A stretch of 64,000 nt of DNA, taken from contig JAKDPD010000004.1 in assembly GCA_030455605.1 (NCBI GenBank), positions 1 to 64,000 of the forward strand, given 5' to 3'. Source of the DNA: Lactobacillus sp. GTDB lineage: Bacteria; Bacillota; Bacilli; Lactobacillales; Lactobacillaceae. A program made the position numbers and the translations under genes. This document shows positions 8,769 through 20,458 of the stretch, in pieces. Within the stretch, counting starts at the first letter, position 1. Each line of letters opens with the position of its first letter. Below the pieces are notes generated by a model. That model was not told where the DNA came from. It worked only from the letters and a program-made list of their open reading frames with translations, and searched no databases.

Positions 8769-10928
8769 CTAGATATGGTTAACCAGTTGCATGATACTAT
8801 CAATTATCGGTTTCAACTTGGAAAATTTATTATTCATCACATTGGTCTGAACAATAAGTATTCGGCGATTGTTAGGACTAATCCGTAAGAAAGTATAGTA
8901 ACCATCGCCAGCACCATTAGCTGCCTTGCCAGCCGGCTTGTTGTAAAAGCCACAGTTGTAGTAGGCATTAGCCGCTTTGCCCTGGCTCATATAACCCCGC
9001 ATTTTGCTGGACAAAAATTTAGGTCCTAAAATATATTGCATCACCCGCGCTAAGTCGCTGGTGGACATCATCACGGACCCCGCGCCTAAAGCATTATGCG
9101 CATCTAAAACTGCTTGTGACCAATTAACCGCTTGCGCAGCCCGATGCTTATGGCCAGCAACTTTTTGCATTTGCTGCCCAACTGCCACGGTGGTCCGTTT
9201 TGGATTAACATGCCACATGAAAGCTGTCCGCTTGAGATGCAGCTTTTGAATATAAGTTTTAGTAAAGAGTGACTCATATGATTGCCCCGTGACCTTGGCC
9301 AAAATACCACATAAATAAACGTAATTAAGTGACGTATAGTGGAATTGACCATAAGTCGCCACTTGATTAAAAACCGTCTTTTGGATATTTTCTTTGAGAC
9401 TAGCAGTGTCAGACACAAACTTCGCCGTCCCAAGCTGACTACCAACTTTAATGTCAAGGCCAGAAGTCATATCTAGCAAATCTTTAATCTGAATCTTTTT
9501 ACTCCCAGGGACATCGGGATAAAACTTCGATAGCGCATCCGTTAATTTCAGCTTATGTTCTTGCACTGCTTTTAGGACTAAGGCCGCCGTTAACGATTTC
9601 TGCACCGAATTAATTAAGTATATCTTAGCAGCTTTAGGTTTCTGACCCATATTGATCAGGGTTTTACCGTTCTTCACCACTAATGACACATGTGCTAGCT
9701 TCAGTTGCTTTAATTTATCTTGAACCTGCCATTGCCGTTTCAGTGACTGGTTTACCCGTTTAACGTGGGTCCGCTTTTGCCACTTTTTAGTGAAGTAGTG
9801 CCACTTAAGATTATAACGATGATGGCGTTTGGAACGCTGAATAAAGTGATAGACAACTTGATCCAACGCAAGTAATCCTTGCCCGCCTAAATGATTACTA
9901 TCCTTCATAAATAAGGCGGGCTTTGCAACCTTCGAAAAATCAGCGACTTGATCAAATCCTTGACTGTATAACTGAAATTTCAACTTATTGACAACTTGCT
10001 GATACATCGTTTTGGCTAATTGGGGCGCATTTGGTTCATTCATTGGGGGAATGACAAATTGCACGGTCATTTTTCGTTTCGCAAACGCATGTAACAACAA
10101 TTCAAAATCACCATATTCTGGTGACTTCAAATCACTCCAACTAACGGTTGATGCCGTGTTAGAGTTAGTTGTGCGGGTCGCTAATTTTGATAATGCGGAT
10201 TCCGAATAGTTATTCGGCAATGAGCGCTGCACCCGCGTCAATAATACTCGTTGCTGAGCTAAATGATTGCCACTGAAGTAATTGTCAAGACTGGTCAACG
10301 CGCGCTGACGGCGTGCTAGCAAAAACTTTTCCCAAGACGACAGCATCTGACCTTTAGCAACCTGTTGCAAAGCTGAGCGAGTTAGTCCCTTAACAGTTGC
10401 CATTTGCAATAAGCGACTCGCCGCATAACGGTCAGGCAAACTGGTTTTAGCATGCAACAAGAACAAAGTCGTAGCAAGTGGTGAATAGTACTGCGTAAAT
10501 GCTTGTTGACCTTGGCCTTGCCGAGTAAACCATTTCGGTGACAGAATTACCACGGCCGACTTATGCTGCAACTGACGGCCTAGGCCCTCCATTCCCATAA
10601 ACTGAAGTAGGGACTGGCAGCCATCGCCACCAAGCAAAAACGGACGATACGTCCGTTGATACTTAACAGCCAGCACACTTGGATGTAAAGGCGTTAATTG
10701 AGGTAATTCACTTGTACCATAAAAAGGAACATAATCGCCTGCAAAGGCCTCCTGCTTTAAGCGCACCCCCTTTAACACTGCGGGTGTTTTGGCGGTAGCG
10801 GCTTCAGCAATCACCGTACGTGAAAAATGGCGCTTAATCGGAAATTGTGAGGCCAGCAAGACTAACAAACAGGCAATTAGCACTGGCCCTAGGGTGAGCC
10901 AAAGCTTGATGCCTTTATTCTTTTTCAA
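8769..10928 (-). CDS. dltD: DltD-like N-terminal domain fused to a serine beta-lactamase/DD-peptidase-like C-terminal domain
   Basis: DltD catalytic-type motifs YGTSELPQ and [10 protein letters not shown] in the N-terminal half; SxxK (SVQK) and YTSLNY motifs in the C-terminal half; overlaps dltC by 14 nt. Confidence 0.88.
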
Positions 10929-14084: not shown

Positions 14085-14118
14085 CTTTTTTACTAAAAAG
14101 GCGGTTTGGTCATACTTT

Positions 14119-14294
14119 CTTCACATTTAATCAGTATAGTAAGCAATGTAGTAAGCAGAGCGGTTTCACTTACTAAGTTTTGTTTTTCATTCTCCTTCAA
14201 TAAATAATGAAAAATGCTAGTGAATCGAGTCCCCCAACTCGGTTTACCTTATATCCCCATAAAAAGTCATACATCGGTATGACTTTTTATTTTT
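14119..14294 (+). ncRNA. Candidate sRNA unit A (predicted transcript about 14147-14292)
   Basis: -10 TATAGT 14135-14140; stem GTAGTAAG (14148-14155)/CTTACTA (14169-14175); hairpin TTTTTCATT...AATGAAAAA (14183-14214) with CTCCTTC loop; CGAGT-CCCCCA-ACTCG hairpin; 12-bp terminator AAAAAGTCATAC-ATCG-GTATGACTTTTT 14261-14288; no ORF. Confidence 0.7.
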
Positions 14295-14364
14295 TTGCAA
14301 ATGATCAATCATTAAGAGAACTAAATCTTTTCTTTACACTTTTATAAGTATTTATACGACAATC

Positions 14365-14503
14365 CTTCACATTTACTAGTTAATATAAGGGCTGTAGCAA
14401 GGAAGTAAAACTTGTTACATACTCCCACTTTTTATACATTCATTCTTACTCCTCCAAAGTAGATGAAAATAAAGCGACTTGCCTTCCCAGCAAGTCGTTT
14501 TTC
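14365..14503 (+). ncRNA. Candidate sRNA unit B (predicted transcript about 14393-14503), homologous to unit A
   Basis: -10 TAATAT 14381-14386; stem GTAGCAAG (14394-14401)/CTTGTTAC (14411-14418); hairpin exposing CCTCCAA (14451-14457); terminator CGACTTGC-CTTCCCA-GCAAGTCG-GTTTTT 14475-14502; no ORF. Confidence 0.7.
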
Positions 14504-14589
14504 TTTATCAAGTCACTCTCCTAGTCAGCTCATGCAAGCTTTTATATAATGAAATTAATGATACCAAATTTAGCCACAAAGGAGCTACG

Positions 14590-15078
14590 ATGTTCTCACC
14601 CACTATTCAACGGCTGATTGAAGATAAAGCTGGCGCATTCTTAATTCCTGCCAGCCGGATTGCTTGTGTTCAGGTGGATAACCCGCTTTATCATGCTTTT
14701 CTAGTTTTAACTAAAGACCACTACGCTAAAATTCCAGTGCTTGACCACCAACAGCGCGTTGTTGGGCTACTCAGTCTGTCCATGATTACTGATAAAATGC
14801 TCAAAAATACTGAGATTTCAACTGAACCGCTCAACCAGCTAACTGTCCAAACCGTCATGCAAACGCACTTCGCGACCATTAACTTCGCCCAAACTACCCT
14901 CGAAGCACAACTGCATCTCCTCATTAACAATGCGTTTTTACCAGTCGTTAACGATCGTGGGGTTTTTCAAGGATTACTCACACGTCGCGAATGGATTAAG
15001 ACTTTTAACTATATTGCCCACACCTTCGACAACAAATACCAAGTCAAAGAAATGACTTCTAATTTAAAACGATTTTAA
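14590..15078 (+). CDS. CBS-domain protein (CbpB-like)
   Basis: Tandem CBS pattern (YAKIPVLDHQQRVVGLLSLSMI; NNAFLPVVNDRGVFQGLLTRREWI); RBS GGAG before ATG 14590. Confidence 0.85.
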   Translation: MFSPTIQRLIEDKAGAFLIPASRIACVQVDNPLYHAFLVLTKDHYAKIPVLDHQQRVVGLLSLSMITDKMLKNTEISTEPLNQLTVQTVMQTHFATINFAQTTLEAQLHLLINNAFLPVVNDRGVFQGLLTRREWIKTFNYIAHTFDNKYQVKEMTSNLKRF

Positions 15079-18160: not shown

Positions 18161-19246
18161 ATGATGAACATTCGTCATATCAGTACTATCGTTACCGTCG
18201 CTGTCGCAGCAGTAGCACTAACTGCTTGTGGGGGCAGACGTGGCCAAGCCAGCAATAAGGCATCTGATGCCAAGCATTCAGTTGCCCTCATTACAGATGG
18301 TAATGGCGTTAATGACCATTCCTTTAATCAATCTGCTTGGAATGGTTTTCTCGCTTATGGTAAAGCATATCAATTAAAACGAGGTCAGAACGGTTATCAG
18401 TACTTCCAATCAGGTAGTGCGGCTGACTTTGATAACAACTTTAGTCAAGCCGTTGCGGCCGGTTATCATACGATGTTTGGCGTCGGCTACTCACTTAAGA
18501 CTGCTGTTTCCACTGCGGCTAAGAAGTACCCGAAGAAGAATTTTGTCATCATCGATGATGTGGTCAGCGGTCAAAAAAATGTTGCCTCTGCTAATTTCAA
18601 GAGTGAACAAGCTTCCTACCTAGCTGGCGTCGTTGCTGCTCACGAAACCAAGACAAACACAATTGGGTTCATCGGGGGCGTTCACGGTGATATTGATGAT
18701 TTGTTTGACGCTGGTTTTACTCAAGGGGTAACTGATACCGCTAAGAAATTACACAAACATATTAAATTACTGAACCAATATGTTGGTAGCTTTGATGCCG
18801 TTGATAAGGCCAAGGCCATTGCACAGGCCATGTACACGAAGAAAGCCGATATCATCTTCCATGCTGCTGGTGGTGCCGGTGATGGTCTATTCGCTGAAGC
18901 TAAAGCCATTAATCAAACCCGTCCTGCTAATAAAAAAGTTTGGGTAATCGGGGTTGATGTTGATCAATCAAACTTAGCTAACTATCATACTAAAGGTGAC
19001 CAAAAAGATAACTTCGCGTTAACCTCCGTTATTACCGGCGTGAACGTAGCGGTTAAAGATATTTCTGAACGTGCTTACCATGATAAATTCCCTGGTGGTC
19101 AAAACCTGATCTATGGTTTAAAGAATGACGGTGTTTCACTTACCCGTGGTCAAATCTCAAGCCAGGCTTGGATTGCCGCCCAAAAGGTCAAAACTGATAT
19201 TATTAATGGTAAGATTAAAGTTAGAATCCACCCCCTTAGTAAGTAA
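18161..19246 (+). CDS. BMP-family nucleoside-binding lipoprotein (copy 1)
   Basis: Lipobox LTACGG; VALITDGNGVNDHSFNQSAWNG. Confidence 0.93.
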   Translation: MMNIRHISTIVTVAVAAVALTACGGRRGQASNKASDAKHSVALITDGNGVNDHSFNQSAWNGFLAYGKAYQLKRGQNGYQYFQSGSAADFDNNFSQAVAAGYHTMFGVGYSLKTAVSTAAKKYPKKNFVIIDDVVSGQKNVASANFKSEQASYLAGVVAAHETKTNTIGFIGGVHGDIDDLFDAGFTQGVTDTAKKLHKHIKLLNQYVGSFDAVDKAKAIAQAMYTKKADIIFHAAGGAGDGLFAEAKAINQTRPANKKVWVIGVDVDQSNLANYHTKGDQKDNFALTSVITGVNVAVKDISERAYHDKFPGGQNLIYGLKNDGVSLTRGQISSQAWIAAQKVKTDIINGKIKVRIHPLSK

Positions 19247-19372
19247 CATTATTCGTCATTGTGCGATAAAGATTTTTTCCTCATAAGTATCCCGCTATTG
19301 ATTGACGCCATACGTACTTAATGATACAATTCTATTAAATTGTTCGTATTATTTGTGGCGGAGGGAAATTCG

Positions 19373-20458
19373 ATGAACGTTCAGTTCAAAAGAGTCTTGT
19401 CAATCGGTGTTGTGGCAGTTACTAGCGGACTTTTACTAGGCGCATGTTCGGGCAAACAGCAAGGAGGAACAGCTAATCGCAATGTTAAGCATGGCATTGC
19501 ACTAATCACCGACTCTAACGGGGTTGATGATCATTCCTTTAACCAAGCAGCTTGGTCTGGTTTTAAAGCCTATGGTCAAGAACATGGGTTAAAGCAAGGT
19601 AAAGGCGGCTACCAGTACTTTCAGTCAAGTAGTGCAGCAGATTATGCGCCTAACTTTGACCAAGCAGCAGCTGCTGGTTATCAAACCATCTTCGGCGTTG
19701 GCTATCAGCTAACGGACTCAGTGGCAGCTGCTGCTAAGAAGAATCCGAAGAAGAACTTTGTGATTGTCGACAGCGTTATTCCTAATCAAAAGAATGTTGC
19801 TTCTGCAACCTTCGAGAGTAATCAAGCATCATATTTGGGCGGTCTGGCTGCTGCTTATAGCACTAAAACTAACAAAGTGGGCTTCATCGGTGGTGCCAAA
19901 TCATCCGTTTTAGACCTCTTTGAAGCTGGCTTTAGACAAGGGGTAGCTGCTGGCGCCAAGGCCTTGCATAAGAAAATTTCCGTTCAGGTTCAATACATTG
20001 GCAACTTTACTTCAACCGATAAGGCGAAAGCAATTGCGCAATCAATGTATGCCGACAAAGCCGATATTCTTTACCAAGCTGCTGGTAACGCCGGTAACGG
20101 TGTCTTCTCAGAAGCTAAAGATTATAACCAAGCGCGTCCAGCCAGCAAGAAGGTCTGGGTAATTGGGGTTGATACCGATCAAGCTAGCTTAGGCGACTAC
20201 AAGTCCAAGGATGGTAAGACGGACAACTTTACTTTAACCTCAGTCCTCAAAGGCTTAGATGTCGCTGTTCATTCACTCGCTAATGACGCCTATAATGGTA
20301 AATTCCCTGGTGGCAAGCATATCGTTTACAGCTTGAAACAAAATGGGGTCTCCATTACTAAGGGCAACTTAACCACTAAGACTTGGGCTGCTGTCCAAGC
20401 CGCTCGTAAACAAATCATTGATGGCCAAATTACCGTTGCTACTTCACCTAAGAAGTAA
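19373..20458 (+). CDS. BMP-family nucleoside-binding lipoprotein (copy 2)
   Basis: Lipobox LLGACS; IALITDSNGVDDHSFNQAAWSG; paralogue of the preceding gene. Confidence 0.93.
   Translation: MNVQFKRVLSIGVVAVTSGLLLGACSGKQQGGTANRNVKHGIALITDSNGVDDHSFNQAAWSGFKAYGQEHGLKQGKGGYQYFQSSSAADYAPNFDQAAAAGYQTIFGVGYQLTDSVAAAAKKNPKKNFVIVDSVIPNQKNVASATFESNQASYLGGLAAAYSTKTNKVGFIGGAKSSVLDLFEAGFRQGVAAGAKALHKKISVQVQYIGNFTSTDKAKAIAQSMYADKADILYQAAGNAGNGVFSEAKDYNQARPASKKVWVIGVDTDQASLGDYKSKDGKTDNFTLTSVLKGLDVAVHSLANDAYNGKFPGGKHIVYSLKQNGVSITKGNLTTKTWAAVQAARKQIIDGQITVATSPKK

Follow-up and report, generated by a model that had tools for sequence, protein, structure and literature searches.

We identified in a Lactobacillus genome two tandem RNA units, A and B, which are likely to be two members of a multicopy family of trans-acting Lactobacillales small RNAs (sRNAs) that would block the Shine–Dalgarno (SD) sequence, related to LhrC and Ref84 in design and probably by descent. 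They lie in a 64,000-nucleotide stretch of DNA, the whole of which was analysed and is hereafter called the window. The family is real, widely conserved across lactobacilli and their relatives, and unrepresented in Rfam. To our knowledge, few regulatory RNAs are known in lactobacilli; a literature search on the core sequence, on such Lactobacillus sRNAs and on LhrC homologues outside Listeria, which covered few subscription papers, returned nothing relevant. Each copy carries its own predicted promoter and terminator, a 5′ stem kept by compensatory change, and a nearly invariant core complementary to SD, AUG and AAA. As judged from these sequences, it is very probable that the family base-pairs with mRNAs, mainly those for exported proteins, over their ribosome-binding site and start codon, much like LhrC. 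We infer its regulator, expression and targets.

The features of the locus are listed in Table 1. The initial annotation had described an identical box followed at a fixed distance by a –10 element, two differing 5′ stems that nevertheless pair, pyrimidine loops with additional C-rich tracts, and a plus-strand terminator for each unit, all of which were found. The box CTTCACATTTA occurs at 14119–14129 and at 14365–14375, with both –10 elements starting 16 nt from the box start. Three terminator-like sites are present at the locus against 0.4 expected; two of them are on the plus strand, and the third is the minus-strand face of the unit B terminator. The predicted minimum free energies are –39.5 kcal/mol for unit A and –30.4 kcal/mol for unit B, and in either case none of 200 dinucleotide shuffles folded as well. 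No ORF longer than 46 aa starts within the two units. Unit B, like the LhrC RNAs, presents three C/U-rich motifs, namely a single-stranded ACUCCC, UCCUCC in the hairpin loop and CUUCCCA in the terminator loop. Unit A is an unusually diverged member: the A-type loop of most relatives likewise contains UCCUCC, and at the position homologous to its CUCCUUC loop most relatives have UACUCCUCC. In the A-type units of relatives the core is followed by UAUCUAUCCC, as in the third-hairpin region of unit A. Elsewhere in the window, on the minus strand (8769–10928), a 719-aa ORF combines dltD with a beta-lactamase-type domain fused in frame at its C-terminal end (Pfam families DltD and Beta-lactamase); ORFs resembling dltC and dltA adjoin it.

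Table 1. Features of the two sRNA units and the adjoining gene (positions in the window)
Feature	Position	Strand	Basis or remark
Unit A with promoter box	14119–14290	+	tandem with unit B
Unit A promoter: half-sites GTCATA (14109–14114) and TTCACA (14120–14125), 11 bp apart; –10 TATAGT (14135–14140)	14109–14140	+	sequence
Unit A sRNA, ~143–145 nt, diverged A-type member	14148–14290	+	fold z –6.3; iterated nhmmer homology to unit B
Unit A 5′ stem-loop UAGUAAG/CUUACUA	14149–14175	+	fold; arms paired in A-type relatives
Unit A putative anti-SD hairpin, stem UUUUUCAUU/AAUGAAAAA, loop with CUCCUUC (14192–14198)	14182–14215	+	fold
Unit A third hairpin, loop CCCCCA, then UAUCCCC	14220–14247	+	fold
Unit A intrinsic terminator	14259–14297	+	terminator prediction
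Unit B with promoter box	14365–14503	+	tandem with unit A
Unit B promoter: CTTTAC..TTATAAG (14332–14348), degenerate half-site TACGAC (14355–14360), TTCACA (14366–14371), –10 TAATAT (14381–14386)	14332–14386	+	sequence
Unit B sRNA, ~110–115 nt, B-type member	14391–14503	+	fold z –5.5; covariance model R1, 97.5 bits
Unit B 5′ stem-loop UGUAGCAAG/CUUGUUACA	14393–14419	+	covariation in B-type sequences
Unit B single-stranded ACUCCCACUUUUU	14421–14433	+	nearly invariant among B-type copies
Unit B conserved core hairpin CAUUCAUUC-UUAC-UCCUCCAAA-GUA-GAUGAAA displaying UCCUCC (14450–14455)	14437–14469	+	conservation; exact-core pattern search
Unit B intrinsic terminator, loop CUUCCCA	14471–14503	+	fold and terminator prediction
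Promoter-like site of the CBS gene, TAGTCA-17-TATAAT	14522–14550	+	promoter prediction
CBS-domain (CbpB/YkuL-like) gene	14590–15078	+	Pfam CBS; usual neighbour of the pair in Lactobacillus, not in other genera

Comparison of the promoters revealed a family box of two TTCACA-like half-sites 11 bp apart, the second of which ends about 9 nt before the –10 element. The unit B promoter layout is also found in B-type relatives. Searched as a strict pattern in 41 Lactobacillus genomes, the box was found 16 times, always upstream of family members, and its reversed control not at all. The double box precedes 69 of 136 Lactobacillus members, 23 of 32 from other Lactobacillaceae and 11 of 18 from the family labelled f9 (0–0.05 in shuffles); in the three members from the family labelled f2 the strict box is absent, with half-sites visible by eye. 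OmpR-type activators, CiaR among them, use promoters of this layout (PMC3091779), but the half-site TTCACA differs from the CiaR half-site.

A DNA search with the interval gave matches in 70 of 75 Lactobacillus genomes, a handful of them short. Iterated nhmmer runs ended in one identical set of 145 matches whichever unit served as the seed, A or B, which bears out the earlier claim that the two units are homologous. These matches lie in about 70 of the 75 genomes; four loci are represented twice among them, and 134 distinct units were retained. Most of the 70 Lactobacillus loci hold two copies (57), the others three (4), four (1) or one (8). The window belongs to a metagenome-assembled genome of Lactobacillus sensu stricto; the locus in UBA5804 is near-identical to that of the window, with a CBS protein 97% identical. 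The units fall into three sequence types, which differ in the 5′ stem and in the single-stranded linker. The sequence of the 5′ stem diverges strongly with its pairing kept: among 34–35 B-type sequences, four of eight pairs have changed on both sides, the covariation score was reached by none of 500 shuffles, and the pairing of 98% dropped to 31–48% once the partners were slid. In A-type relatives the arms are 90% paired as against 51% with the 3′ arms re-dealt, a contrast that is only indicative because the arms were taken from each sequence's own fold, which favours the former figure by construction. The 3′ core, ACUUUUU..CAUU..UACUCCUCCAAAGUA, is nearly invariant, and covariation thus supports the 5′ stem only, since the hairpin core hardly varies within Lactobacillus. 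Stems and loops are therefore kept in relatives, where their loss would have spoken against the initial annotation. Two Limosilactobacillus-type loci (L041 and L042) carry a relative of the CBS gene without a family unit upstream, so that the gene and the sRNA are separable.

Beyond Lactobacillus, the B-type covariance model gave weak matches clustered in particular Lactobacillaceae genera, and the DNA retrieved from other Lactobacillaceae contained promoter, core and terminator together, though the model includes neither promoter nor terminator. An exact pattern of the core was found in 29 of 395 Lactobacillales genomes, with one match for the reversed control; among 299 genomes class-wide it was found in the window's own genome only. 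A cross-genus model, with a threshold of E 0.001, detected members in 61 of 345 Lactobacillales genomes, which belong to Lactobacillaceae, f9 and f2. Most loci retrieved in this way show the full layout, and copy number reaches eight per genome, in f9 genomes; no member was found in the Streptococcaceae-like family f4. We take f9 to be Carnobacteriaceae-like, f2 Vagococcaceae-like and f4 Streptococcaceae, and, on the strength of strong Ref84 and LhrC matches, f3 to be Enterococcaceae and f8 Listeriaceae. Outside Lactobacillus, the neighbouring genes encode GreA, a bile-salt-hydrolase-type protein, an aldo/keto reductase, ribose-phosphate pyrophosphokinase, MupG, a DUF817 protein and a metallophosphoesterase. 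This recurrence of promoter, core and terminator next to unrelated genes in other genera and families argues for a trans-acting RNA and not a leader. Two f9 loci (L264:1185–1575 and L266:783–1368) hold tandem arrays of three or four almost identical copies spaced exactly 195 nt apart, which suggests recent amplification.

Searching the whole window against Rfam at its cut-offs gave no match; this check had been proposed in the initial annotation, and the family is absent from that database. The copies in the window matched neither LhrC (RF00616) nor Ref84 (RF02846), even at E 10. At the f9 and f2 loci, these two are the best-scoring of 4227 families. Ref84 aligns with f9 and f2 members over its whole model (1–87) at 40–45 bits, below its gathering threshold of 52, and LhrC with f2 members over its whole model (1–111) at 39–42 bits (E 0.0006–0.0025; gathering threshold 110). 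Whole-genome Ref84 searches recovered loci of the family in both f2 and f9 genomes; with LhrC, the single match in genome G458 is a family locus; in 14 control genomes no LhrC or Ref84 match appeared among the short list of candidates that such searches score. Because only a short list was scored, absences in the whole-genome LhrC search are not evidence; in genome G471 it pointed elsewhere, passing over a family locus to which cmscan gives 42 bits. In the reverse direction, the family model was applied to the LhrC and Ref84 loci: its best matches were without exception on Ref84 genes, with 22–28 bits on most strong Ref84 genes and 14–19 bits on LhrC genes. Common descent with Ref84 is thus likely and, given sub-threshold scores of C/U-rich sequence, common descent with LhrC plausible; the below-cut-off matches of the most distant homologs suggest that all three may belong to one superfamily.

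The claim of descent, and only this part of our reading, competes with convergence, in which the family would work like LhrC and the csRNAs without sharing an ancestor with LhrC or Ref84. C/U-rich SD-binding motifs do arise repeatedly in low-GC bacteria, and every Rfam match lies below its gathering threshold; against this, the matches run the full length of both models, rank first among all families, and in whole-genome searches coincide with family loci, the control genomes being negative among the candidates scored. The promoters point both ways, for TCACA is present in 11 of 20 LhrC upstream regions versus 1.6 in shuffles, whereas TTCACA repeats were not found upstream of Ref84. Several Enterococcus Ref84 genes (upstream regions of L312–L319, L329 and L335) share another motif, roughly GTTATTTTTATGA; with this and the missing repeats, regulation of Ref84 may have been rewired. 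We consider convergence a serious, if rather doubtful, alternative, and retain common descent as the preferred reading.

The core, read 5′ to 3′ as ACUUUUU..CAUU..UACUCCUCC, has the reverse complement GGAGGAGUA..AAUG..AAAAAGU, in which an SD sequence is followed at the usual distance by a start codon and then by lysine codons. In the proposed mechanism, an OmpR-type response regulator, perhaps the counterpart of LisR, would turn on all copies together under envelope stress. The UCCUCC loop would make the first contact with the SD sequence, and the 5′ arm of the hairpin together with the upstream ACUUUUU would then zip over AUG AAA AAG (the CAUU/UUUUU arm). Such pairing would block initiation on a group of target mRNAs among which those for exported proteins would be over-represented. 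Since the copies differ in their flanking segments, they may share targets with different preferences. In Listeria, LisRK is mandatory for LhrC; the UCCC motifs of LhrC4 bind G-rich sequence that precedes the start codon of lapB, its stem A opens, and nucleotides 24–32 pair with lapB –2 to +7 (PMC4132741). Surface proteins, namely OppA, TcsA and LapB, are the targets proven for LhrC (PMC5880928).

Putative targets were sought among 325–343 genes sampled from each of three genomes, with automatic gene calls and starts and with accessibility ignored. Genes in the top 5% of duplex energies were compared with the rest for exported-like products, defined as a signal-peptide-like or membrane N-terminus by a simple hydrophobicity rule. 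In the first control the fractions were compared by Fisher's test (four tests, uncorrected p); in the second the CUCCUCC block was held fixed and its flanks were shuffled in 60 trials. The exported-like fraction was 9/16 versus 55/309 in G512 (p 0.001, reached by 1/60 shuffled flanks), 7/17 versus 46/326 for the A-type unit of G003 (p 0.008, 2/60), 6/16 versus 48/314 in G288 (p 0.03, 20/60), and 5/17 versus 48/326 for the B-type unit of G003, which is not significant (p 0.1, 2/60). The enrichment holds against both controls in two of the four tests. Part of it is to be expected in any case, since a start of the form AUGAAAAAG is characteristic of signal peptides; judged by the shuffling control, the flanks seem to favour exported proteins further in both G512 and G003, and not in G288. 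The strongest duplex predicted for the B-type linker ACUCCCACUUUUUUAU in G003, a near-perfect match at –34.1 kcal/mol, joins it to the start of a gene for a 1627-aa cell-envelope subtilisin-like proteinase (L172:6461–11344, plus strand), the best of 343 starts and reached by none of 60 shuffles. A conserved single target for this linker was rejected, as a pattern search of 40 other Lactobacillus genomes found no equivalent start. Near the units in the window are two adjacent plus-strand genes for PnrA/Bmp-type lipoproteins (18161–19246 and 19340–20458), the second of which ranks in the top ten of predicted targets for each of the two units; TcsA, the known LhrC target, is of this type.

The same family might instead act mainly by titrating something other than mRNA, its UCCUCC loop mimicking the anti-SD sequence of 16S rRNA or binding a protein, with a global effect on translation. 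We judge this improbable: the near-invariance of the loop despite free drift of the 5′ stem, together with up to eight copies per genome, would suit such a role, but conservation extends past the loop into CAUU and UUUUU, the very segment that would cover AUG AAA and that 16S mimicry would not need, and LhrC, the nearest characterised RNA, pairs with specific mRNAs (PMC4132741).

Pairing with mRNAs in trans is preferred, and two other origins that the initial annotation had named as possible refutations, a leader of the CBS gene and a decayed coding sequence, were both rejected. At 62 of 70 Lactobacillus loci a unit does precede the CBS gene in the same orientation, at a distance of no more than 400 nt; however, strong terminators and a separate promoter-like site intervene, and other neighbours are found at eight Lactobacillus loci and at the inspected loci of other genera, so that a leader or attenuator is most improbable. 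As for a decayed coding sequence or peptide on either strand, no ORF is conserved, and U runs of 5–7 and CAUU repeats of 1–3 among relatives vary in length, which rules out a conserved reading frame. An RNA antitoxin of a type I system, with its core antisense to one toxin mRNA bearing an ideal SD, is scarcely credible: read as its reverse complement, the core does give a strong SD with an AUG, and the best sub-cut-off Rfam match of the region is OrzO-P (30.1 bits, gathering threshold 60), but this match lies mostly on the terminator, no small ORF is conserved near the units on either strand, and regulated promoters in many copies throughout an order are at odds with such a system. With stems and loops conserved, the earlier proposal of putative SD-blocking sRNAs, made by analogy with csRNAs and LhrC, gains support as a prediction.

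Occurring in nearly every Lactobacillus genome examined, the family can be deleted and probed by Northern blot in laboratory strains, and it offers a possible route by which one stress regulator sets surface-protein output in probiotic and dairy bacteria.

Among known systems, the streptococcal csRNAs of the CiaR regulon are likewise multicopy and complementary to SD and AUG; their promoters, controlled by a response regulator, contain 11-bp direct repeats followed about 10 nt downstream by a –10 element. Their box, however, is TTTAAG-N5-TTTAAG whereas that of the family is TTCACA-type, and membership in the CiaR-type csRNAs was rejected on this ground; Lactobacillus has no CiaH homologue (PMC3091779). 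With the CiaR box absent, this analogy is functional only, as the initial annotation had held for csRNAs and LhrC alike; for LhrC, distant homology is plausible, because the f9 and f2 intermediates match the LhrC and Ref84 models below cut-off. Enterococcus Ref84 is organised like the f9 and f2 members, with an A/C-rich 5′ end, a CCUUUUUAUUUUUCAUUUUACUC hairpin with GAGUAA, then ACUCCUUUU and a terminator, but differs in a loop without UCCUCC and in promoters without TTCACA repeats. Compared with LhrC of Listeria monocytogenes (LhrC1–5, Rli22 and Rli33-1), the family has the loop UCCUCC in place of UCCC, an extra 5′ stem in the Lactobacillaceae copies, and a last TTCACA about 9 nt from the –10 element, which in LhrC promoters lies farther upstream. 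Both are multicopy, often tandem RNAs of about 110 nt with their own promoter and terminator, with TCACA half-sites in the promoter, an UUUUCAUU arm that pairs over AUG AAA (predicted for the family), and surface-protein targets, which are shown for LhrC and only predicted here. We tentatively propose, as an idea somewhat short of probable, that LhrC, Ref84 and the family form one ancient Lactobacillales lineage, driven by LisR-type regulators, whose core is antisense to a generic exported-protein start (SD plus AUG AAA AAG) and would lower the exported load as a class under envelope stress. If the tie to LhrC and Ref84 is true, the virulence-associated Listeria sRNA would be one branch of an order-wide envelope-stress RNA system.
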